Positions 49,500 through 60,395 of a stretch of 64,000 bases of DNA are shown here, in pieces. A model generated the notes under the pieces. That model had not been told where the DNA came from, ran no database searches, and worked only from the letters and a program-made list of their open reading frames with translations. Source of the DNA: Photobacterium halotolerans DSM 18316 (GTDB lineage Bacteria; Pseudomonadota; Gammaproteobacteria; Enterobacterales; Vibrionaceae); contig NZ_KE384321.1 in NCBI RefSeq assembly GCF_000425165.1, positions 6,235-70,234 of the forward strand, read 5' to 3'. Each line of letters opens with the position of its first letter. Position 1 is the stretch's first letter. A program made the position numbers and the translations under genes.

Positions 49500-50179
49500 A
49501 TAAAGCCTTTGTGTCGCATGCACTGATAAGAGCATGGTCAATTAAGGTGTGAATCTGAAATCCTGACAATTAACCGATAAGTCAGTTGGCGGAAGATTAA
49601 ACACAAGAATATGTTTTTTATATATGCAAAAGAACTTCTCTCGAGTCACTTAATACTATTTAAAGAAACAAACAGAGCTCAACAATTAAAAGCGTGATCA
49701 AGAGTAGATACCAAAAAAGGAAGCAATAAAATATAACTCTCAGCCTGATCATCATCAACAACAAACTCTCCGACAAACCACCAATGGAAGCGACAATAAT
49801 CTGCTTATCTATCGGATATAGCTACTTTATACCAAGAACAATAACACTGTTAGATCAGCCCATTAAAGATAGAATTATCATTAATTATATTTACAATCAA
49901 AGCATAATGAACCATGTACTTTTTTATAGAAAAATAATACCAGGACAGACATAAGAAGGAGGAATATCAGAAAGGAAATCAGGACAGACACAGCAGGAAA
50001 CTATCGGCAAACTATCGGGACAGGCACAGTAAAGCTCCAAGCTATCAGGACAGACACCAGATGAAACGATAAGCTATCAGGACAGACCGATTAATGCTAC
50101 GCGTCACAAGCGACTTATCGTCAGCGCCGCGTAACAATAATATGGAGAATGCGGACTCTTTATGATCAGGCACTCTGAT
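49500..50179. other. AT-rich intergenic with a repeat cluster
   Basis: About 680 bases. The first 430 (49500-49930) are AT-rich with no protein-like frame. From 49936 to 50088 five short repeats stand in line. The rest (50090-50179) is the 3' flank of the DUF2007 gene. Confidence 0.5.
49936..50088 (-). repeat. five-copy cluster of GTGTCTGTCCTGATAG-type repeats
   Basis: Five same-orientation copies of the dispersed repeat (read on the minus strand as GTGTCTGTCCTGATAGCTT). The shared GGACAG core starts at 49943, 49982, 50018, 50048 and 50080, so copies are 30-39 bases apart. The last three share CTATC before the core. Confidence 0.75.
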
Positions 50180-50596
50180 TCAAAGCTTTTCAGTGAACTC
50201 GCCACAAGCTTCGCATTGATAGCCATGGCGGTAAAAAAACAAGGGAAAGCCCAGTAAAAGGAAAACGACAAATGCAGGTCGTTTTCCCTTTGTGTACGGC
50301 AGTAAATCATGGCTGCCGCAACGCGGACAGGCATCCGCTTCCCCGGTGAAGATATGACTGTCCTCGACAGCTTGTGACTCAACAGCTTGCGAGAAGTCGC
50401 AGCTCAAAATATCACGGGCTTGTTCAGCCTGTTGTTTCGCGACCATCAGGCGTACGCCACCCATCGCATTGGAATACAGCCACTGCACATTCACTGTATG
50501 CTCGTCAGCCAGATGGCTATGAATACCGGCAGCCTCAAGGCTGGCTTTCGCAATATGCGCTTCGTGGGGAAACGAAAAACGGGCAACAACAATCAT
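50180..50596 (-). CDS. DUF2007-domain protein with zinc ribbon
   Basis: 138 residues. The N-terminal DUF2007 part (VVARFSFPHEAHIAKASLEAAGIHSHLADE, GVRLMVAKQQAEQARDIL) is a small ferredoxin-like domain also called a putative signal-transducing domain. The C-terminus has CPRCGSHD, one membrane helix (FVVFLLLGFPLFFY) and CEACGE, a zinc ribbon split by the helix. AAGGAAG precedes the ATG. It follows the DUF1428 gene on the same strand and may belong to the same ECF-controlled group. Confidence 0.75.
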   Translation of the reverse strand: MIVVARFSFPHEAHIAKASLEAAGIHSHLADEHTVNVQWLYSNAMGGVRLMVAKQQAEQARDILSCDFSQAVESQAVEDSHIFTGEADACPRCGSHDLLPYTKGKRPAFVVFLLLGFPLFFYRHGYQCEACGEFTEKL

Positions 50597-50683
50597 ATAT
50601 TCTTCCTTGTGCTTAACCAGACTGAGCGGTGCATGGCAGCACCGCGTTTCTTAGCCCCTGTCTACAGCTCCGCGCAACCGTTG

Positions 50684-51037
50684 CTAGCAATCTACGATAG
50701 TTTCGAACCCGCCATAAATAAGGCGCTTGCCATCAAACGGCATGGGGTTCAGATTCTGATCACAGATAGGATCTTTCATAAACAGAGCCATGCCTTCGTC
50801 TCGTGCCGCTTTTGAAGGCCATTGGATCCATGAAAACACCACTGTCTCACTGTCTTTACATTTAACTGCCATAGGAAAAGACGTGACTTCGCCATCTGGT
50901 ATATCATCGCCCCAGGTTTCGACCACACGCTCGGCGCCGTACTTTTTAAAGACCTGTGCGGCTTCTGCGGCATGTTGTCGGTATTCCTCTCGTTTGTCTG
51001 TTGGCACAGCGCAAACAAAGCCATCAACATAACTCAT
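50684..51037 (-). CDS. DUF1428 (YbaA-like) protein
   Basis: 117 residues: YVDGFVCAVPTDKREEYRQHAAEAAQVFKKYGA, then ERVVETWGDDIPDGEVTSFPMAVK and IQWPSKAARDEGMA match the DUF1428 family of dimeric alpha+beta-barrel proteins (YbaA in E. coli). The activity is unknown. GAGGAG precedes the ATG. It starts 17 bases after a YciI gene and is often found with ECF42-linked sets. Confidence 0.85.
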   Translation of the reverse strand: MSYVDGFVCAVPTDKREEYRQHAAEAAQVFKKYGAERVVETWGDDIPDGEVTSFPMAVKCKDSETVVFSWIQWPSKAARDEGMALFMKDPICDQNLNPMPFDGKRLIYGGFETIVDC

Positions 51038-51053
51038 GATCTTTCTCCTCTGC

Positions 51054-51452
51054 CTATGGTGCGCTACGCACCTCTGTGTCTTGATAACTCACGTTATTCT
51101 CGCCCTGCAACTCGCGTACCGGACGGATTTCTACGCTGCCGTAGCGTGCAGGCGGGATCTTACTGGCCATCTGAATCGCTTCGTTCAGATCCCGGACATC
51201 TAACAGGTAGAACCCTGCCAGCTGTTCTTTGGTTTCAGCAAACGGGCCGTCCGTAATGTCCACCTTGCCATTCCGCACGCGTAACGTGGTGGCCGTCTGG
51301 ACAGATAGCAGCGCCTCGCCTCCGATCATATAGTCACGCGACCGCAGGGATTCACCGCAATCGATACACTCACGGTTGAGCGCATCCCACTCGTCTTGCG
51401 TCAGCGCCTTCATTACTGATTCGTCGTAATAGACCAAAGCTACATATTTCAT
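51054..51452 (-). CDS. YciI-family (DGPF domain) protein
   Basis: 132 residues with the family's DGPFAETKEQLAGFYLLDVRDLNEAIQMA, here DITDGPFAETKEQ, and the opening YVALVYYDESVM. YciI-like/DGPF proteins are dimeric alpha+beta-barrels of unknown activity and are the standard genomic partners of ECF42 sigma factors. CAGGGAG lies upstream of the ATG. It is the second gene after the ECF42-type promoter. Confidence 0.88.
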   Translation of the reverse strand: MKYVALVYYDESVMKALTQDEWDALNRECIDCGESLRSRDYMIGGEALLSVQTATTLRVRNGKVDITDGPFAETKEQLAGFYLLDVRDLNEAIQMASKIPPARYGSVEIRPVRELQGENNVSYQDTEVRSAP

Positions 51453-51499
51453 CGCCCTGATACTCCCTGTCTGATTTAAGAAGCCAGCTACTGCTACTG

Positions 51500-52357
51500 C
51501 TACTGCTGGTGCTGGCTGTCGTCGCCTGGTAACATCACCATCCAGCCCATGCCAAACTTATCCGTTACCTGGCCATATAACGGTGACCAGAAGGTTTTTT
51601 CCAGCGGCATACGTACTGAACCACCGTCTGCCAGTGCATCAAATACACGACGCGCTTCCGCTTCGGAGTCAATCGTTAATGCCAGATTGAACCCGGTAAA
51701 CGGACCCTCGTCACCGCAGCCGTCTGAGGCAAAAAGTGTCATGTTTCCGACCGTAAATTCGCAGTGCATCACCTTGTTTTCAAAACCGGGAGGTAACATA
51801 CCCTCGGGCACAGGATCCGGGCTTTCATTGAACCGAAATAACATGCCCACACTGGCGCCGAGGTGTTTCTGATAATATTCCAGCGCCTCATCACAGCGGC
51901 CAGAGAAAAACAGATAGCAGTGTGATTGCGCTTTTTGCATCGAAAGCGTTTGCCGTAACTGAGTTTCTTGTGCACGAACCGTTCCGTCACTGTCGATCTC
52001 GTCAAAGTCTTCCATTTCATAAAAAGGGCGGATTTCAATGTCGGACGCTTCTTCCATCGGGTTCGGGCATTTTTTTACCCATTCAACGGCTTCATCCATC
52101 GAGTTGACGTTCCAGACCCAATAACCGGCCACTAACTCATTGGTTTCAGCAAATGGCCCTTTGGTCACGATGCGTTCACTGCCATTAAAACGCACACGAA
52201 TGCCCTCACTGCTGGGTTTTAAACCGTCGCCCGATGCCATAATGCCGGCTTTCACCAGAGTTTCGTTGAACTCGCCCATGGCCATTAACAATTCCTGGGT
52301 TGGCATCTTGCCGGCTTCCGAACTTTCACTGGCTTTCACAATTACCATGACTTTCAT
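51500..52357 (-). CDS. fusion of YciI/DGPF domain and PhnB-like glyoxalase domain
   Basis: 285 residues. Residues 1-115 are a YciI/DGPF domain (MKVMVIVKASESSEAGKMP, RIVTKGPFAETNELVAGYWVWNVNSMDEAVEWVKK). Residues 140-280 are a VOC/PhnB-type domain (CYLFFSGRCDEALEYYQKHLGA, VMHCEFTVGNMTLFASDG, FWSPLYGQVTDKFGMGWMVM). Separate genes for these two are usual in ECF42 loci, so a fusion is worth noting. AGGAG precedes the ATG. It is the first gene after the promoter at 52423-52450. Confidence 0.87.
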   Translation of the reverse strand: MKVMVIVKASESSEAGKMPTQELLMAMGEFNETLVKAGIMASGDGLKPSSEGIRVRFNGSERIVTKGPFAETNELVAGYWVWNVNSMDEAVEWVKKCPNPMEEASDIEIRPFYEMEDFDEIDSDGTVRAQETQLRQTLSMQKAQSHCYLFFSGRCDEALEYYQKHLGASVGMLFRFNESPDPVPEGMLPPGFENKVMHCEFTVGNMTLFASDGCGDEGPFTGFNLALTIDSEAEARRVFDALADGGSVRMPLEKTFWSPLYGQVTDKFGMGWMVMLPGDDSQHQQ

Positions 52358-52422
52358 TGCGCTTCTCCTGTCTGTGTATTCAGGTTGATTTAAGAGCGGC
52401 TTCTTTTTGCTCTCTACACAAT

Positions 52423-52450
52423 AGTCGAGTGAACCTTCAGAAAATCGACA
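52423..52450 (-). promoter_or_regulatory. ECF42-type sigma promoter
   Basis: On the minus strand TGTCGA (-35), 17 bases, then CGAC (-10), 70-95 bases before the YciI-PhnB start. As I recall it, the published ECF42 promoter in Streptomyces is TGTCGA with CGA or CGTC-type -10, and this matches well. The sigma gene lies immediately upstream. Confidence 0.7.
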
Positions 52451-52489
52451 ACGCGTGAAAAATTTTTTGATCTTTTGACTGGTAACTAT

Positions 52490-53767
52490 TTAAGGTGTTG
52501 TCAGCAGTGCCAACTTTCGTCTGAGAATGCGCTGTTCCGGGGCTTGCTGAGTCAGGCTCAGTGCGAGCTCAAATGCTGAGATAGCTTCTTGCACCCGACC
52601 GGCCCGGCTGAGCAATTCGCCATAGGTCGCATAGGTGAGGTGATAGGTTTGGAGGACTTTTTGTTCAAGCAGGTTTTCAACGATCTCGATCCCTGCCTGC
52701 GGACCATCACGCATCGCCACGGCGACAGCCCGATTGAGTTCAATGACTGGCGAGGGCGCCACTTGAAGCAGCAGGGAATAAAGCGACACTATCCGGGCCC
52801 AATCGGTGCTGGCCATATCCGCTGCCTGAGCATGAGCCGCCGCAATCGCGGCCTGTAATGTGTAATAGCCAATATTTCTGGTTTCCAGGGCACTCTGTAC
52901 TAAGACAATCCCCTCTTCTATCAAAGCGGCATCCCACAACCTGCGATCCTGATCTTCCAGCAATACGATGTCGCCTTGCTGATCCGTTCGGGCACCTCGG
53001 CGCGATTCATTGAGCAGCATCAGCGCCAGCAAGCCAGATACTTCAGCATCGGGCAGCAAGGATCTCACTAAACGCGCCAAACGAATGGCTTCCGCCGTCA
53101 GCTCGGAACGTGTGACACGCTCCCCCGCCGACGCAGAGTAGCCTTCGTTATAGACCAGATAGATGACAGACAGCACGGATTCGATTCTGTCCGGCAACTC
53201 AGTTTCTGAAGGCAGTTGAAAGGGAATGTTCGCTTCGCGGATTTTTGCCTTACCCCGCACAATGCGCTGGGCCATGGTGGATGGCGACGTCAGAAAAGCA
53301 CTGGCAATTTCTTCTGTGGTCAAACCACACACTTCCCTCAGCGTCAGTGCGACCTGCACTTTGGCATCTATGGCCGGATGACAGCAGGTAAAGATCAACC
53401 TCAGCTGATCGTCTTCAATCACCTGATCATCGAATTCGAATGGGCTTTCAGTGTCAGTGCGGATAAAGGATGTGTTATTGGGAGCATCGAGCAGCTCTGA
53501 GACAATCTCGACTTGCCGTTTTTGCCGGCGCAGATGATCGATGGCTTTGAAGCGCCCGACAGACACCAGCCAGGCACTGGGGTTATCAGGAATCCCCTCT
53601 TTCGGCCACTGAGTTAACGCCGTGCTGAACGCATCGTGCAGCGCCTCTTCTGCGAGATTAAAGTCACCCAGCAAACGAATTAAGCTCGCATACACTTTAC
53701 GGGCCTCGTTGCGATACAGGTTCTCTACTTTGCTTTGTACCGCTTCGCTTGTTACAGGTGATTTCAT
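52490..53767 (-). CDS. ECF42-group RNA polymerase sigma factor with C-terminal helical domain
   Basis: 425 residues from the ATG at 53767, with GAGAGAGACGA upstream. Sigma-2 region: VYASLIRLLGDFNLAEEALHDAFSTALTQW; sigma-4: ALTLREVCGLTTEEIASAFLTSPSTMAQRIVRGKAKIRE. After about residue 180 there is a long TPR-like/DUF6596 tail (YLVYNEGYSASAG, LLALMLLNESRRGARTD), the ECF42 hallmark, in place of an anti-sigma gene. The tail is needed for activity in known members. It stands upstream of three DGPF-type genes, its likely targets. Confidence 0.92.
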   Translation of the reverse strand: MKSPVTSEAVQSKVENLYRNEARKVYASLIRLLGDFNLAEEALHDAFSTALTQWPKEGIPDNPSAWLVSVGRFKAIDHLRRQKRQVEIVSELLDAPNNTSFIRTDTESPFEFDDQVIEDDQLRLIFTCCHPAIDAKVQVALTLREVCGLTTEEIASAFLTSPSTMAQRIVRGKAKIREANIPFQLPSETELPDRIESVLSVIYLVYNEGYSASAGERVTRSELTAEAIRLARLVRSLLPDAEVSGLLALMLLNESRRGARTDQQGDIVLLEDQDRRLWDAALIEEGIVLVQSALETRNIGYYTLQAAIAAAHAQAADMASTDWARIVSLYSLLLQVAPSPVIELNRAVAVAMRDGPQAGIEIVENLLEQKVLQTYHLTYATYGELLSRAGRVQEAISAFELALSLTQQAPEQRILRRKLALLTTP

Positions 53768-53827
53768 TCGTCTCTCTCGCGCTGTTCGGTTTTCTCTGAG
53801 CAATCTGAAGCGGGCGCTTACAGCACT

Positions 53828-54520
53828 TCACGACATTGCCCATTCCACGGCTTTGGCGGCATGGATGGCCGTTGTGTCGTACAAAGGAATACCAGCATGC
53901 TCCTGAGAGATTAACATACCTATTTCAGTACACCCCAAAATAACAGCATCAACACCAGCCAGCTCTAACTCATGGACGATACGAATATACTCATGACGAG
54001 ATGTCGCATTAATATTACCCAGGCAAAGTTCGTTATAAATAATGTCATGAACCTGCTTTCGATCTTTTTCGCTGGGTATGACAACCTCAAGACCGTACTT
54101 TTCCGATAAACGATCTTTATAGAAAGATTGCTCCATTGTAAAAGCGGTGCCTAAAAGGCCCACCTTGCTGATCCCGTCCTTTACAAGCTCTTCACCAGTG
54201 GCATCAGCAATATGAAGCAGGGGAATACTGATGCTCTGTTCTACCTCTGGGGCAACTTTGTGCATGGTATTCGTGCAGATCAACACAAAGTCGGCCCCCG
54301 CAGATTCCACACTTCTTGCCGCATCAACCAGTATCTCAGCCGCACCTGTCCAGTTGCCGCTGTGCTGTAATTTTTCAATAGGAGCAAAATCAACACTATG
54401 AAGAAATATTTTAGCTGAGTGGAGACCACCCAACGTATTTTTTACACCTTGGTTAATTTTCCGATAGTACCCGATCGTACTTTCCCAGCTCATTCCGCCT
54501 ATCAGCCCAATTGTCTTCAT
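53828..54520 (-). CDS. aspartate/glutamate racemase-family protein
   Basis: 230 residues. Both catalytic cysteines of the family are present: CTNTMHK (about Cys83) and LGCTEIGML (about Cys194). MKTIGLIGGMSWESTIGYYRKIN opens the protein. This is the aspartate-racemase (YgeA-like) group, which interconverts L- and D-amino acids without a cofactor. The exact substrate is not known. GGAGCGGTGAGAG lies upstream. Confidence 0.87.
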   Translation of the reverse strand: MKTIGLIGGMSWESTIGYYRKINQGVKNTLGGLHSAKIFLHSVDFAPIEKLQHSGNWTGAAEILVDAARSVESAGADFVLICTNTMHKVAPEVEQSISIPLLHIADATGEELVKDGISKVGLLGTAFTMEQSFYKDRLSEKYGLEVVIPSEKDRKQVHDIIYNELCLGNINATSRHEYIRIVHELELAGVDAVILGCTEIGMLISQEHAGIPLYDTTAIHAAKAVEWAMS

Positions 54521-54560
54521 GCGCTCTCACCGCTCCCTGAATATAGTCCTGTATCAAAAA

Positions 54561-54656
54561 TTACGCGGACAGACACAACAAATGAATCACTCAGCCTGTT
54601 TAACGTGCCTGTCCTTGTTAGTAGTTATCCCTCTTTAACATGTCTGTCCCTGCAAT
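54561..54656. repeat. three copies of the dispersed GTGNCTGTCC repeat
   Basis: One copy in minus orientation (54561-54579) followed by two in plus orientation (54604-54622 and 54639-54656). The first two form an inverted pair, like REP/BIME units. They lie between the racemase gene and the PagL-like gene. Confidence 0.7.
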
Positions 54657-54665
54657 CCCAAGCAG

Positions 54666-55214
54666 TCAAAACCGATAGCTCAATTCAATCATGTGGAAAT
54701 CAGCCCCTGTTGTATCAGATCCATTCACGCCGGCATCGGAATAATGAAGAAAACGATAGCCTAACCCCAGATTGTTAAACAGCGGCACACCAACGCCAAA
54801 AGTCAGAGCAAACTGGAAAGGCCCGCCATAGTCTTGCACTCCAAAGCGATACTTACTGAATAGTGCCCCACCGACTCCTAAATCCAGCGTAAACCGGCCG
54901 TCTTCACTGCCCAGGGTCAATTCGGGGATAGCAGAGACAACAAAAGCATTTCCCCCGTTCGCCTGCAGCATTCCGGCACTCACCATCAAGCGCGTGCCCA
55001 TTCCCCAACCAAAAGTGGAATAATCTTGCCATGGTAAGCTGAAGTTCGCCGCCAGGTCGTACACCTCAAAATCCTCCGGCGCATCATCTCCAAGTAATGT
55101 CTGCTCTGAAACACGGGCGCGAATACTGAGACTCTGTAATTTCAGCTCTTCCGGGTAGCTCTGGCTGGGGCAGGAAAGGCAACAAATGGCGATCAACATC
55201 CGTCTGAGCGACAT
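54666..55214 (-). CDS. PagL-like outer membrane acyloxyacyl hydrolase
   Basis: About 182 residues from the ATG at 55214 (MSLRRMLIAICCLSCPSQSY as signal peptide). The frame is open to 55406, but that extension runs through two copies of the dispersed repeat and has no protein character. Alternating hydrophobic strands (ELTLGSEDGRFTLDLGVGGALFSKYRF, FNNLGLGYRFLHYSDAGV) and a terminal aromatic (ELSYRF) mark a beta-barrel. HYSDAG fits the His-x-Ser active-site pair of lipid A 3-O-deacylase. No good ribosome site, so the start is uncertain. Confidence 0.68.
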   Translation of the reverse strand: MSLRRMLIAICCLSCPSQSYPEELKLQSLSIRARVSEQTLLGDDAPEDFEVYDLAANFSLPWQDYSTFGWGMGTRLMVSAGMLQANGGNAFVVSAIPELTLGSEDGRFTLDLGVGGALFSKYRFGVQDYGGPFQFALTFGVGVPLFNNLGLGYRFLHYSDAGVNGSDTTGADFHMIELSYRF

Positions 55215-55254
55215 TAAATGGCGATGAGAACCGATCACAGATCTACCAGAGGAT

Positions 55255-55294
55255 CTACCAGGACAGACATCAGTTCTACAAGGACAGACAGGTG
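55255..55294 (-). repeat. two copies of the dispersed repeat, left of the transposase
   Basis: CTACCAGGACAGACATCAG (55255-55273) and CTACAAGGACAGACAGGTG (55276-55294), both in minus orientation. A third, partial unit (CTACCAGAG) precedes them. They stand about 130 bases before the transposase start. Confidence 0.75.
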
Positions 55295-55421
55295 AAGAAA
55301 AAAACAACTTCATCAATTTCATGAGATTCTGACCCAGATCCCCACTTCGTGATTTGCTCCTTTTTTCGGCCAGCACAGACATATACTGTATATTCATCCA
55401 GCTCAATTATTGTGACTCCCA

Positions 55422-56378
55422 ATGACGACAGCACGCAGCCAACTTATCAGTATAGAAGCTACGCCCTACTACCATTGCGTTTCCCGATGTGTTCGCCGCT
55501 CCTTTCTTTGCGGCTACGATGAACTGACCCAGACCAGCTATGAACACCGGCGGGGGTGGGTTGAGAAACGCTTGAAACGGATTGCCAGTGTCTTTTGTGT
55601 GGATGTTTGCGCCTACGCCATTATGAGTAATCACTACCATGTCGTTCTGCATATCAACAAGGATCAGGCCCACCGCCTCTCGAACCATGAAGTTATAAAG
55701 CGCTGGCTCACCTTACATCGCGCCCCTGCGCTGATTCAGCGGTTTTTGAAGCACGAGGCCTTATCCGAGGCCGAACAGTCTGCTTGCTTAACCATCATCA
55801 AAACCTGGCGGGAGCGGCTTTGTTCCATCAGCTGGTTCATGCGCCTGCTCAATCAGTACATCGCCAGCAAAGCCAATCAGGAAGACGACTGCACTGGCCA
55901 CTTTTGGGAAGGCCGCTTCAAAAGCCAGGCACTGCTGGATGACAATGCTTTAGCTGCCGCCATGGCGTACGTCGATTTAAACCCGATCCGGGCCGGTATC
56001 GCGGAGACACCGGAAACCTCCGCCTACACTTCCGTAAAAGCGCGCATTAAATCGCTTCAAAAGAACGAAACAACGGCGCCCAATCTGTTTCCCTTCGCGG
56101 GCACCTCACGCAACAACATGCCAGAAGGACTGCCTTTTCACCTGTTCGATTATATTGAGCTGGTTGAGTGGACCGGACGGCAAATCAGGGAAGGAAAACA
56201 TCACCATATCCGCTCAACCCAGCATCCCATCCTTGAACGGCTCGGTTTACACTCTGATGTGTGGCTCAATATCTGCACCAAAATAGAAACAGGCATCCTC
56301 ATTGGCACAGCCTCATCAATTCAAGCCGTTTTGCCGAAATTGAACCGGCAACGACGAACCGGTTTACAGATCCCTTAA
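55422..56378 (+). CDS. Y1 (HUH) transposase, REP-associated type
   Basis: 318 residues. The single-tyrosine HUH transposase fold (Y1_Tnp) is shown by the metal motif MSNHYHVVL (His-x-His) and PYYHCVSRCVRRSFL at the N-terminus, with the catalytic Tyr region near NQYIASKANQEDDCTGHFWEGRFKSQ, split in two blocks. The long C-terminal extension is usual for the larger Vibrio/Shewanella members. No IS200/605 ends or TnpB were found. Instead it is flanked by short inverted repeats of the dispersed family, so it looks like a RAYT-type enzyme acting on them. Confidence 0.88.
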   Translation: MTTARSQLISIEATPYYHCVSRCVRRSFLCGYDELTQTSYEHRRGWVEKRLKRIASVFCVDVCAYAIMSNHYHVVLHINKDQAHRLSNHEVIKRWLTLHRAPALIQRFLKHEALSEAEQSACLTIIKTWRERLCSISWFMRLLNQYIASKANQEDDCTGHFWEGRFKSQALLDDNALAAAMAYVDLNPIRAGIAETPETSAYTSVKARIKSLQKNETTAPNLFPFAGTSRNNMPEGLPFHLFDYIELVEWTGRQIREGKHHHIRSTQHPILERLGLHSDVWLNICTKIETGILIGTASSIQAVLPKLNRQRRTGLQIP

Positions 56379-56560
56379 CCCATTCACAGCAAGCAGATCC
56401 TCAACAGCGATACATTCGTATGCTGCTGCTCGCCTGGAAATCATGCCAGATGCATAAAATCTCACTTTGCATTCCAACACGCTGTCAATCAGTCTTTATA
56501 AAAAGCAAATGAAAGCGAATTTTTGAATCTGGTACAGGCCTTCCTGGCTCTGATTTATGC

Positions 56561-56600
56561 GTGACTGTCCTATTAACTATCATGACTGTCCTTATTAATT
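56561..56600 (+). repeat. two copies of the dispersed repeat, right of the transposase
   Basis: GTGACTGTCCTATTAACT (56561-56578) and CATGACTGTCCTTATTAATT (56581-56600), in plus orientation, i.e. inverted relative to the pair on the left side of the transposase. Confidence 0.75.
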
Positions 56601-56610
56601 ATCTCTCGCG

Positions 56611-57081
56611 CTATACCTGCGCTAAAACGTGCTCAATAAACGTCGACTTCTTCTCACGGTACTCGTCGTGTGACAAACCCTCACACGATTTCTTTAACTC
56701 ATTGTACTGAACCACTAAATCTGGAGATGTGCGTAACCTGTCACGAAAATCTACAAAGCACTCAAACTCTGAGCCTATCGCTACCACCTGAAAAGCCACA
56801 TCTTCGCTTGTTGACTCAAGCATGCATAGTTCAGCTGTTCTCAGTGTGTTTTTCTTTTCTTGAAACCCCAAGGTGAGCAAAATACGCGCAGAATCTTCCA
56901 GTTCGTGCGCATCAACGCCGATCAAGATATCAAGATCACCTTTTGAAATAGCGCCTGGAACGGATGACGCTCCCACATGCTCGACTCTTGCTGCTGGCAA
57001 CAGCCTCCGTACTTGATTCAGATAATAATCAAACCGCTCATGACAGGCTTTCTGATACTGATACGGACTAAGAAATTTCAT
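56611..57081 (-). CDS. GrpB-family (UPF0157) protein
   Basis: 156 residues: ARVEHVGASSVPGAISKGDLDILIGV is the GrpB block and resembles a nucleotidyltransferase active site (GSSVPG..K..iDi). It continues LRTSPDLVVQYNELKKSC and ends YREKKSTFIEHVL. The family is widespread; the function is not established. AGAGG precedes the ATG. Confidence 0.85.
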   Translation of the reverse strand: MKFLSPYQYQKACHERFDYYLNQVRRLLPAARVEHVGASSVPGAISKGDLDILIGVDAHELEDSARILLTLGFQEKKNTLRTAELCMLESTSEDVAFQVVAIGSEFECFVDFRDRLRTSPDLVVQYNELKKSCEGLSHDEYREKKSTFIEHVLAQV

Positions 57082-57120
57082 CTTTCCTCTTAATCATCAA
57101 TTGTCCTAACTACGAATAGT

Positions 57121-57176
57121 GTGCCTGTCCTGGTAATGGCTATGTAATGCGCTATGCGGTGTCTGTCCTGGTAACG
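57121..57176 (+). repeat. two copies of the dispersed repeat
   Basis: GTGCCTGTCCTGGTAAT (57121-57137) and GTGTCTGTCCTGGTAACG (57159-57176), 38 bases apart and in the same orientation. They lie between GrpB and the S66 peptidase gene. Confidence 0.75.
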
Positions 57177-57194
57177 AGCTCTCTGAATCATTGC

Positions 57195-58199
57195 TTATTT
57201 CCCGACTAACCACGGGCTCTCCAGCTGAAAAACCTGATTATCAAAGTCAATGCTGGCTTGGACACCTAAAGGTGTCACCAACATGGGATGGGTATGACAA
57301 CTGTCAAAGCCATATAATATTGGCATGTTCTGACCATTAAGAATTTCAAGCAGGACGTCTAATGGCGAGCGACTTGTTCCTTTGTCATCAAAAAGCTCAT
57401 GCTTACCAAGCACTATCGCTCCAACCTTGTCAAAGACGCCACAAGCCTTTAAGTGAGCAAACGAGCGTTCAACAGTTTCAATCCCTTTTAATGAGTCTTC
57501 AATGAACAGTATGTCACCTGAATGTATTTCAGGCATATAATAGCTTCCCCAAATACCTGCCATTGTATTCAGGTTACCGCCAATAATACGCCCGGTGATT
57601 TTCCCACCCCCAAGAAATGTCCATTCGTTGCTAAAAACACGCTTTGCCGTGTTTTGTGTTTCCCAATCCAGTTTAACGTCTGTCCAGCGTTCAGGCATAA
57701 CATATTTATATTCACTTTTCTCTGAACTCAATATATCCAGAAATGACTGAAAAGTGTCATCAACTAAAGGCGGAAACTCACCAAACGATGCCACTAAAGC
57801 GGGTCCATAGAAAGTGACAAGACCCGTTTGTGCATAAATACCAAGTAAAAGTGCAGTCACATCGGAATAACCAATAATGATTTTTGGATCTTTTCTAAGT
57901 GCTTCGTAGTCAATATATGGCAATAATGAATTACTGTTATTACCGCCAATGGTCGACATAATGCATCGAATGCTTGGATCTCGGATAAGCTGATTGAACT
58001 CTTCAGCCCTGGCCTGAATTGATCCAGAGCGATATGAGTCTGAACATCCTGTCAAGGCTCCTTCAACCAGCTCAAACCCTTGACCTTCCAGGTAGGCTTT
58101 TGCTCTTGAAAATCGATTGGGCGCGAATACTGTTGCCGGTGATGACGGTGAAAAGAAGCCTATTTTGTCACCAATGGTTAATGCTTTTGGGAATATCAA
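57195..58199 (-). CDS. S66-family peptidase, MccF-like
   Basis: 334 residues starting at a TTG with GGAGG ten bases upstream. The S66 nucleophile is in IIGYSDVTALLLGI, and the catalytic pair (Glu in FIEDSLKGIETVER and His in SCHTHPM) is present. GGNNSNSLLPYIDYEAL and the loop around NEWTFLGGGKITG are closer to MccF, which cleaves microcin C-type peptides and gives immunity, than to LD-carboxypeptidase LdcA. No signal peptide, so cytoplasmic. Confidence 0.85.
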   Translation of the reverse strand: MIFPKALTIGDKIGFFSPSSPATVFAPNRFSRAKAYLEGQGFELVEGALTGCSDSYRSGSIQARAEEFNQLIRDPSIRCIMSTIGGNNSNSLLPYIDYEALRKDPKIIIGYSDVTALLLGIYAQTGLVTFYGPALVASFGEFPPLVDDTFQSFLDILSSEKSEYKYVMPERWTDVKLDWETQNTAKRVFSNEWTFLGGGKITGRIIGGNLNTMAGIWGSYYMPEIHSGDILFIEDSLKGIETVERSFAHLKACGVFDKVGAIVLGKHELFDDKGTSRSPLDVLLEILNGQNMPILYGFDSCHTHPMLVTPLGVQASIDFDNQVFQLESPWLVGK

Positions 58200-58556
58200 A
58201 AGTCACTATCCTCCATGATGCTAAAAATAAAAAACCACATGCAGAATTAACGAGTTCTTTTTGAAGTGGTAATTGCTCGAGTTTGGGACCTTCCTGGTTC
58301 AAAATCACCTCCTTTTATATAGCGCCACAATCTGGGATGAATAAGCACATTTTGTAACTCACCAATGACGTAAACGCTTAAATTGCATTAAACGCCAAAC
58401 GTTTAGTAACAAGTATAAATAACGAGCATGGGGATATGAAAGCTGCCGATATGTTTATACAGACAGTTGAACCAACACATAGAGCCAGCAATTCTCTCAC
58501 TCTATGTGTTGGATGATAAGCAGTAAAAAACCACTTATTTATTGAAAGCTTCTTGC
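58200..58556. other. intergenic with a long hairpin
   Basis: About 360 AT-rich bases between the S66 peptidase and DUF3297 genes. A perfect 13-bp inverted repeat is at 58472-58512. No gene was seen. Confidence 0.45.
58472..58512. repeat. perfect 13-bp inverted repeat
   Basis: CCAACACATAGAG / CTCTATGTGTTGG with a 15-base loop, about 45 bases past the DUF3297 stop. No T run follows on either strand; it may be an mRNA 3' hairpin or Rho-dependent end. Confidence 0.55.
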
Positions 58557-58805
58557 TTATTTATAGAAAGCTTCTACTTGGCCTTTCAGTTTGATCAACA
58601 TTGGCTGACCAAAACGATCTTTTGCTTTCGGTGAAGGGATTTTGACCCAACCCTCACTGATGCAATATTCTTCAACATCAGTACGCTCTTTGCCATTCAG
58701 ACGAATACCGATATGGTGTTCAAAACACTCTGCCACATAGTGTGGGCTGCGAGGGTTACCGGCAAGGTGATCGGGTAAAGCTGGTTTATCGTTAATGTCG
58801 CTCAT
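58557..58805 (-). CDS. DUF3297-family protein
   Basis: 82 residues from the ATG at 58805 (MSDINDKPALPDHLAGNPRSP); an extension to 58829 is open but less like the family. HYVAECFEHHIGIRLNGKERTDVEEYCISEGWV, cut here for length, fits DUF3297, a family of glutathione-peroxidase-linked small proteins in gammaproteobacteria. Function unknown. AGGTC lies upstream. Confidence 0.82.
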   Translation of the reverse strand: MSDINDKPALPDHLAGNPRSPHYVAECFEHHIGIRLNGKERTDVEEYCISEGWVKIPSPKAKDRFGQPMLIKLKGQVEAFYK

Positions 58806-58901
58806 GTTCATGACCTGAAGTATGTACAAAGTGCGCCATTGTAGACAATGCCCGCCCGGTGCTCAACCAGACAGAGGCACTATTTCGACTGTAACTGTAC
58901 G

Positions 58902-58919
58902 GTGACTGTCCTGGTAATT
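58902..58919 (+). repeat. one copy of the dispersed repeat
   Basis: GTGACTGTCCTGGTAATT, very close to the consensus, directly after the stop of the gene at 58926-59243. Confidence 0.75.
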
Positions 58920-58925
58920 TGAACC

Positions 58926-59243
58926 TCAGGCCGCAGCCATTGACCAGATCTGAAAACCAACCGTGCAGAGTAACCCGATGATAACAAGTGCTTTGTCCTT
59001 GAATGTCGTTGCTGAACGCGCCGATAGTGCAGCTAAAAACACGCCGACAGAAGCGCCGGTATTGGCAATCGCAAATGACCGTTCAAAGTTATGAAACCAA
59101 AAAAAGACAGCACACCCAATCAGAGCAAGCAGCATCAACTTAAAAATTACATCAAAAAAATCAAATGCATACTGAATATCTTCTTTACTGTCCAATTTCT
59201 TCTTTCTCCATTTTTTACTTAACGAATAAGCTGGCCTCTTCAT
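58926..59243 (-). CDS. hypothetical small membrane protein
   Basis: 105 residues from the ATG at 59243; a TTG extends the frame to 59261. After a basic N-terminus (RPAYSLSKKWRKKKLDSK) come three hydrophobic segments (FKLMLLALIGCAVFFWF, VGVFLAALSA, ALVIIGLLCTVGFQIWSM). I do not recognise the family. It may be a cassette-borne gene, given the accessory character of this stretch. Weak ribosome site. Confidence 0.55.
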   Translation of the reverse strand: MKRPAYSLSKKWRKKKLDSKEDIQYAFDFFDVIFKLMLLALIGCAVFFWFHNFERSFAIANTGASVGVFLAALSARSATTFKDKALVIIGLLCTVGFQIWSMAAA

Positions 59244-59605
59244 CAGGCTCTGCCAGACCAAACCAGTCTGATTGCGTCGCTCTCATGAACAACCAGGTTA
59301 CAAAGTTTCTATATCACTGATTTGAATATATTTTTATCAGAAATAACTCGCTGTGTGAAGATCACGCTGCAAGTCCGGTTGCGTTCGCAGCATTCTCCTG
59401 ATGCACACCCGACAACGCCGGAAAGAACTCATTAGGTGACTGTCCTTGTAAGCAGCCATCAACGACTTCTGGCTGAAAGAAACCCCAAATAGTGGCGATC
59501 ATCGCCTGTGTCAGGAAGATGGTTGTAATCCTAAATTCTATGTTGCGCGATGGCGTCTTATGGAATGCAGAATCAGCATTTAATGATTGACGCCATGGTC
59601 GTTTG
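59244..59605. other. intergenic with one repeat and an inverted repeat
   Basis: About 360 bases. It includes one dispersed repeat (59436-59453) and the dyad at 59541-59609. No protein-like frame was found. Confidence 0.45.
59436..59453 (+). repeat. one copy of the dispersed repeat
   Basis: GTGACTGTCCTTGTAAGC, in plus orientation as on all the right-hand side. Confidence 0.65.
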
Positions 59606-59612
59606 TTATAAG
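59541..59612 (-). repeat. possible degenerate attC-like dyad
   Basis: On the minus strand it opens with CTTATAACAAACG, identical to the usual left end of Vibrio attC repeats, and holds an 8-bp arm pair ATGGCGTC / GACGCCAT around a loop. The right core (expected GTTAxxx) is not present (CGCAACATAG), so it is at best a decayed site. The stop codon of the gene at 59606 lies in its TAACAA. Confidence 0.25.
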
Positions 59613-59977
59613 CCTACAGCTGACTTCGTAATTCCGACTGAAACAACAGCTAAGAATAATGCGCTCACTAAGAACAGGGGCATTTTTGTCACAACCGCAA
59701 GTATACCCATGTTTTTGGACAAAAAACCGCGATACAAGTAATCCGTATTTGTTTGATTACGTCGTTTTTCATTTAGTTTGATCAAGTTAAGAGGATAACT
59801 AGGATTTTTATACCCCCAAAGACAGATAAATGCGATACAACAGAGTGTAAGCCATTGAGGAGAGTCACCGAGAAAGCAACCCACAGCTAAAGCAAATATC
59901 CACGGAGCCATCGTATAATTAAGGTAATTTACCCAAAGGTTGTATTGCTCATGTAATTCATCAATAAATTGTGACAT
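59606..59977 (-). CDS. hypothetical small membrane protein
   Basis: 123 residues with GGGGAA upstream of the ATG. Hydrophobic segments lie at about 24-36, 43-55 and 95-120 (APWIFALAVGCFLG, TLCCIAFICLWGY, PLFLVSALFLAVVSVG). I do not recognise the family. Its TAA stop falls in TAACAA, as in genes carried by integron cassettes, but the adjacent attC-like dyad is incomplete. Confidence 0.55.
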   Translation of the reverse strand: MSQFIDELHEQYNLWVNYLNYTMAPWIFALAVGCFLGDSPQWLTLCCIAFICLWGYKNPSYPLNLIKLNEKRRNQTNTDYLYRGFLSKNMGILAVVTKMPLFLVSALFLAVVSVGITKSAVGL

Positions 59978-60340
59978 TGTATTCCCCTACTTTAGATTCT
60001 TTTATATGGTCGCATTGTACAAAGGCTTATAACCAATGACATGGACTTCCCCCTCATCATGCTTTGCCACCTTGATAAGTCTGATCCTGTAACGACCGGA
60101 GGCCACCATGTCACAATTTGTCTATGGCATTAACTGAGACTAGCCTAGCTTCAGTATCCACGGCGAAGATCACAGAGGCAATGTATTGATTCACAAAACA
60201 ATAGCACGATCAAATGTTCTCTCGGCATTTGCTAATATCCCGCCAGCCATTACCTAAAGTGAAACCAGTGGTATATCACATCGAAATGTATTTGGGCTGA
60301 TACATCCGGAAAGAACAACTTCATCAGATTTCGCTTTAAT

Positions 60341-60357
60341 GTGCCTATCCTTGTAAT
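60341..60357 (+). repeat. degenerate copy of the dispersed repeat
   Basis: GTGCCTATCCTTGTAAT; the core has TAT in place of TGT. It is the last copy seen. The 25 bases before it (GGAAAGAACAACTTCATCA) resemble the sequence after the copy at 55276-55294. Confidence 0.55.
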
Positions 60358-60360
60358 TCT

Positions 60361-60382
60361 AAGTGTCTGCTGCGCGACACTT
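60361..60382 (-). terminator. hairpin after the DUF2971 gene
   Basis: Stem AAGTGTC / GACACTT with an 8-base loop. There is no T run beyond it on the minus strand, so termination is uncertain. Confidence 0.35.
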
Positions 60383-60395
60383 ATCCTTATTTTTA

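Follow-up and report, generated by a model that had tools for sequence, protein, structure and literature searches.

Outward-facing repeats around a subclass 2.3 Y1 transposase in Photobacterium halotolerans: a candidate TIRtron-like system

Introduction

Why does a short repeat with little palindrome accumulate around a transposase gene, and why do most of its copies point away from that gene? This question is raised by a 64-kb stretch of the Photobacterium halotolerans DSM 18316 genome (hereafter the window; it lies on contig C3 of a 4.69-Mb genome, designated G000). Here tnpA, which encodes a Y1 HUH transposase of 318 amino acids (55422-56378, plus strand), lies within a repeat cluster and between inverted repeat pairs. 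The original prediction had recognized this arrangement and likened it to REP/RAYT systems tended by a single-copy transposase; the genome, however, holds four paralogs (A, the window gene, and B, C and D). We propose, with a probability of roughly 0.55, that in a TIRtron-like system these repeats serve the Y1 family as cognate DNA sites, acting both as ends and as preferred targets, so that arrays may grow by self-targeting. The safest statement is narrower, namely that the repeats are cognate end sequences of the transposase family in a TIRtron arrangement.

Repeat copies in the window

With up to three mismatches, GTGNCTGTCCTGGTAA matched 17 places in the window, against 1.26 expected and a maximum of 4 over 100 shuffles. 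Fourteen of these matches lie within 49937-60356, which contains three weaker copies besides; the three outside each carry three mismatches and are at about chance level. The cluster of about 17 copies over 10.4 kb, with nothing above chance level elsewhere in the window, is therefore real. GTG.CTGTCC with at most one mismatch fits 16 of the 17 places originally listed, and the one remaining place, near 50080, holds a degenerate copy. The 10-base core alone gives 32 window matches, comprising the 16 listed and 16 others (12 left of 49,900, and four inside the span at 50334, 50354, 53566 and 59868), so specificity requires the longer pattern.

All seven listed copies to the right of tnpA are on the plus strand and eight of the ten to its left on the minus strand (the plus copies being 54605 and 54640), which bears out the polarity first described. 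Likewise, all 17 copies are intergenic with respect to the likely genes picked from the open reading frame (ORF) list, assuming an internal ATG start for the PagL ORF (54666-55406) and discounting the antisense ORF at 54419-54778 as a gene. Two outward repeats stand 5' of tnpA (55255-55291, minus strand), and the nearer, whose distance from the start codon is similar across relatives, is the likely left end of the transposase unit. Two more on the 3' side (56561-56597, plus strand) likely form its right end, as judged from pattern scans and distances in relatives. In the rest of the genome, 19 places match with no more than one mismatch, and 15 of them lie within 10 kb of one of the four transposase paralogs; with two mismatches there are 65 matches against 26 for a reversed-pattern control.

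Outward repeats around related transposases

A scan of a genome collection, of which the best 80 matches were taken, provided 78 relative loci, mostly from Vibrionaceae. Together with the four own loci and 26 of 28 loci from a genus set (two partial ones were dropped), these made up 108 loci, five of them counted twice because the two collections overlap. In unsupervised 8-mer counts over the 2-kb flanks of the 78 relatives, GTGTGTCC occurred outward at 41 loci and inward at 4, and GTCTGTCC at 29 and 8, respectively; the top outward 8-mer excess was 37 loci, compared with at most 19 in 40 random strand flips. Core forms in 3-kb flanks numbered 212 outward and 42 inward. Within 1 kb of the 108 loci, all variants together gave 324 outward and 32 inward copies, divided among V1 ([AG]TG[ACT]CTGTCC; 170 outward, 26 inward), V2 (GTGTGTCC; 88 and 1), V3 (TGGCTGTCC; 35 and 1) and V4 (TGGGTGTC; 31 and 4). 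Because the core forms for the 3-kb and 1-kb counts were picked from the same loci, the weight rests on the strand-flip control and the genome searches. Seven of the 108 loci have no outward excess. The first copy mostly lies 104-152 bp before the start codon in V1 and V2 and 61 bp before it in V3, and on the 3' side some first copies lie 170-330 bp past the stop codon.

This recurrent outward arrangement suggests that the enzyme cuts and lands at these repeats. Repeat variants also follow the enzyme in part. On a tree of 97 proteins (the 108 less seven removed for length or stops and four identical), variant labels change 17 times, compared with 49.4 in shuffles, a clustering inflated by near-copies; V3 forms one clade, and V1 and V2 are partly intermixed.

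Repeat variants across 52 genomes

The genus set comprised 52 genomes, 17 of which carry the transposase at E 1e-40. Tandem V1 pairs were frequent in six genomes, G000 (23), G007 (13), G013 (16), G015 (17), G034 (10) and G040 (36), all of them carriers of V1-clade tnpA. Among the other 46 genomes, G001, G009 and G043 had one pair each and the rest none, with a reversed-pattern control of at most two per genome. The V3 pattern gave 6-31 matches in all eight genomes with V3-clade tnpA and none in the six tandem-rich V1 genomes (control, at most three matches). V1 and V3 repeats thus concentrate in the genomes that hold the matching tnpA clade.

Locality and polarity with distance

Distances were evaluated in G000, G015, G034 and G040, that is, four of the six tandem-rich genomes; G007 and G013, being in many contigs, were set aside. 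Of 86 tandem pairs, 80 lie within 40 kb of a tnpA gene, an area amounting to about 7% of each genome. Seventy-five of these 80 face away from the nearest tnpA (45 of 45 in G000, G015 and G034 combined, and 30 of 35 in G040). Since pairs within one array are not independent, and nine G040 pairs stem from one 21-bp run, pairs were merged into clusters, 41 of 45 of which face away. In G000 the polarity reaches 28 kb, across cargo genes; it is unusual for a bacterial repeat to keep its polarity over tens of kilobases. Among named relatives, V1 counts are 73 outward and 8 inward at less than 500 bp and 55 and 11 at 3-10 kb. Because paralog D lies on the minus strand, the polarity of the repeats is independent of the gene's own strand.

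Anatomy of the repeat

The repeat has a conserved core, GTGNCTGTCC, and downstream of it, at +13 to +15, a TAA that is weakly conserved. The little palindrome noted at the outset agrees with the V1 analyses. Across 103 V1 contexts, hairpin energy was not below that of shuffles (mean z -0.20), with single copies that do fold (best z -7.85), and no column pair stood out for covariation across the core; V1 flank complementarity was 2.96, against 2.94 after partner shuffling. The REP foot, 5' GT[AG]G, was likewise not found, as G occupies the fourth core position in 1% of the 103 V1 contexts. At position +10, T and C (the only bases counted) number 22 and 6 near paralogs A to C, and 6 and 15 near D.

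The transposase and its paralogs

In 64 aligned relatives, N70, H71, H73, W162, Y183-P188, T203 and S204 are invariant, and Y72 and E163 nearly so. The window protein carries the motifs NHYH, FWEGRF, YVDLNP and TS. Of these, NHYH, WE, YVDLNP and the tail TS correspond to subclass 2.3 in Table 1 of PMC6006769, and 318 amino acids and four copies agree with the approximately 325 amino acids and mean of 3.9 copies per genome that the available text of that source gives for this subclass (Quentin 2018, PMC6006769). By these published motifs, the window protein is a TnpA-Y1 subclass 2.3 transposase. A fold comparison, which scarcely covers residues beyond 278, identified the Y1 HUH catalytic fold of IS200/IS605 (2a6m and others), which is RAYT-like. 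A sequence search of the PDB at E 1 gave no match, and the sole library match was the NCBIfam REP transposase model, with a score below its cut-off.

Relative to A, paralog B is 98% identical and lies 104 kb away, whereas C and D are 83% and 61% identical. High DNA identity between A and B (97%) is restricted to 55266-56491 on the plus strand. The surroundings of A align with G015, G034 and G007, those of B with G015 and G034, those of C with G007, and those of D with G007 (split over contigs), G015 and G034. Because the identity tract is limited and both places are shared with relatives, the A/B identity probably reflects gene conversion rather than recent movement. Recent transposition was rejected as its source, with both places occupied in G015 and G034; in the protein tree A and B pair as sisters, and the two measured copies of G015 do so too, unlike the two of G034. 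A candidate empty site for a G040 copy was also considered, and the sequences compared there are strongly diverged.

Differences between species at the repeats

The places of the tnpA genes are constant between species, and it is the number of repeats and the adjoining cargo that vary. At R2, R3 and R5, orthologous stretches between genes differ by entire units, each made of a spacer and a repeat. At R2 (54561-54655), an inverted pair (54561 minus, 54605 plus) is found in G000, G007, G015 and G034; the extra plus copy at 54640 is present, among these four, only in G000 and G007, which also have an extra copy at R3. At R5 (57121-57174, plus strand), G015 has one outward copy, G000 two and G007 three, one of them degenerate. 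An array of five outward repeats on the minus strand (49937-50092), one of them degenerate and with unlike spacers, is the place of a 5.4-kb insert in G007; at paralog C, that genome carries about 1.7 kb of cargo flanked by repeats. Near D, G000 has direct repeats on either side of a 5,975-bp segment with urease genes; G034 lacks the segment and has one joined repeat.

Further outward copies on the plus strand stand at 58902-58917, 59436-59451 and 60341-60356. Homology of the window with G007 and G015 ends at 58917 and 58919, that is, at or 2 bp past the 3' end of the 58902 copy. Large alignment gaps number 17; in eight of them, by raw count and including the urease segment near D, an edge falls within 4 bp of a repeat 3' end. 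Separately, contig C2 of G040 (926974-927189) carries about ten head-to-tail repeat copies with a 21-bp period.

Proposed mechanism and alternative explanations

The analysis shows the association with tnpA, the polarity, the locality, a partial match of repeat variant to transposase clade, constant gene places, and repeat-number and cargo differences at repeat borders; from this anatomy we infer a nicking site, excision and self-targeting. The inner repeat copies would be the inverted ends of the transposase unit, as in a TIRtron. TnpA may nick single-stranded DNA 3' of the TAA end, excise one repeat together with spacer or cargo as a unit, and insert this unit, strand-specifically, on the 3' side of an existing repeat's TAA end. 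If the enzyme's own end is the target and insertion is strand-specific, new units would stack beside old ones in the same orientation, and stacking would yield local clouds that face away from the transposase on both sides. Self-targeted, strand-specific insertion would thereby account for copies that are local, outward over tens of kilobases and added as units beside old ones; if true, it explains why copies remain local. A bolder extension, which we consider unlikely, is that a Y1 HUH enzyme targeting its own ends builds outward, one-way arrays that take up genes, forming a cassette-gathering platform that is integron-like in outcome.

Several observations weigh against self-targeted growth, or against the pairing of repeat and enzyme on which it depends. 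G021 carries one V1-type tnpA and no tandem pairs. The V3 motif occurs in G046 (six matches), G019 (two) and G042 (two), and in G045 (one, within its own control), all without tnpA at E 1e-40. Fisher tests for V1 and V3 (3e-7 and 1e-8) ignore kinship and so overstate the independence of the data. Outside Vibrionaceae, the outward excess is absent from four of the 13 named loci and rests on one to four matches at most of the others, and Enterovibrio and one Vibrio group mix V1 and V2, sometimes within one locus. Among named relatives, V1 is unbiased at 0.5-3 kb (19 outward, 17 inward), and the bias of V2 (Vibrio) is almost limited to the unit ends, in the first 500 bp (50 outward, 0 inward). 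The V1 repeat has no hairpin signal, though known Y1 enzymes use hairpins. Eight of the 17 large gaps have no repeat edge, the 17th has its edge at the repeat's 5' side, and alignments tend to extend through a shared repeat in any case. Furthermore, the four tnpA genes stand at places shared between species and no transposition was observed, so mobility today is unproven.

A near-identical 38-bp duplication in G007 and tandem runs of 21 bp in G040 and 26 bp in G015 look like slippage. They are what passive arrays would leave behind, in which the TIRtron ends are real, extra copies arise by slippage or recombination, cargo enters and leaves by ordinary recombination and TnpA has no part in growth; recombination, too, gives cargo differences between direct repeats. 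We hold this to be possible, if clearly less probable than self-targeting, but simple slippage does not produce the mostly unlike spacers seen by eye between neighboring copies, and the G000 polarity persists over its 28 kb and through cargo genes. The likeness to REP/RAYT systems holds insofar as a Y1 enzyme with a RAYT-like fold, whose only library match is the REP transposase model below cut-off, accompanies repeat variants that group by transposase clade. It fails on the four gene copies, the subclass 2.3 motifs, the V1 repeats without hairpin signal or GT[AG]G foot, and the distribution of the repeats, which are local, at 10-36 tandem pairs per tandem-rich genome, and not dispersed in high copy number. 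With these three REP features (hairpin, foot and dispersed high copy) lacking, a classic REP was rejected, and a REP/RAYT system with unusual repeats is very improbable. The intergenic position of the window copies would also suit regulatory or structural sites for another protein, clustered here by happenstance; outward polarity around tnpA in many species and variants that cluster by transposase clade make this the most remote of the explanations. Cognate sites of the Y1 family, used as ends and preferred targets, remain our favored explanation.

Neighboring mobile elements

About 100 bp before the repeat at 60341, a fragment at 60027-60245, which from its translation we take to resemble the start of an IS110-type transposase, has 18 genome matches, several of them lined up at intervals of about 1 kb on contigs C24 and C7. 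Short inverted repeats at 59547-59625 and 60357-60392 appear attC-like by eye; a crude scan of the window for attC sites was negative, and we make no claim of an integron in the right flank. At loci L203 and L204, rows of mostly same-strand genes lie next to a presumably thiD-like gene. Several junctions there carry a 145-bp element with inverted V3 repeat ends, present in seven copies whose flanks differ just outside; these are candidate mobile miniature elements or parts of an integron-like array. On contig C14 of G024 (469703-475373), an integron integrase scores above its curated cut-off, and a V3-clade transposase gene is found about 4 kb away. In G015, a 1.2-kb gap within an LD-carboxypeptidase gene (L165:12742-13971) holds two ORFs that look IS3-like by eye.

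Comparison with known systems

IS200/IS605 elements end in subterminal hairpins. The window enzyme shares their catalytic fold, but no such hairpin emerged for the V1 repeats, and the ends here are inverted linear repeats. REP/RAYT (TnpAREP) REPtrons resemble the present system in that a Y1 HUH enzyme and its cognate short repeats evolve together; they differ in that REPs, in the available text of PMC8266576, are hairpins with a GTAG guide, and the repeat here has neither.

The nearest arrangement is the TIRYT/TIRtron, described in the accessible part of PMC3733652 as a RAYT-like Y1 transposase between non-REP inverted repeats, and tnpA does lie between inverted non-REP repeats. According to the same text, some terminal inverted repeat (TIR) families have additional copies, single, paired or grouped (Di Nocera 2013, PMC3733652). 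Many published TIRs, though only some, share GGGGWSAS, whereas the repeats here, read inward, are AGGACAGNCAC or GGACACACACC, with GGACA shared and no GGGGWSAS. Outward polarity over tens of kilobases was not found in the accessible part of that source.

Subclass 2.3, to which length, motifs and multiple copies per genome point, has in the available text of PMC6006769 a 55-amino acid core insert and its own C-terminal domain, and 20 of 26 published TIRYTs are placed there in subclass 2.1, not 2.3. That text finds no REP-like sequences for subclass 2.3, whereas flanking repeats without hairpin signal accompany most loci examined here. In the literature searched, supplements and subscription papers aside, subclass 2.3 repeats, clade-linked variants and long-range polarity were not found reported; searches of literature texts for the repeat letters gave chance-level matches, and those listed look unrelated. 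A Y1 transposase with cognate flanking repeats is thus of a known kind, and the present repeats give multi-copy TnpA-Y1 subclass 2.3 a candidate DNA partner with clade-linked variants, testable in vitro.

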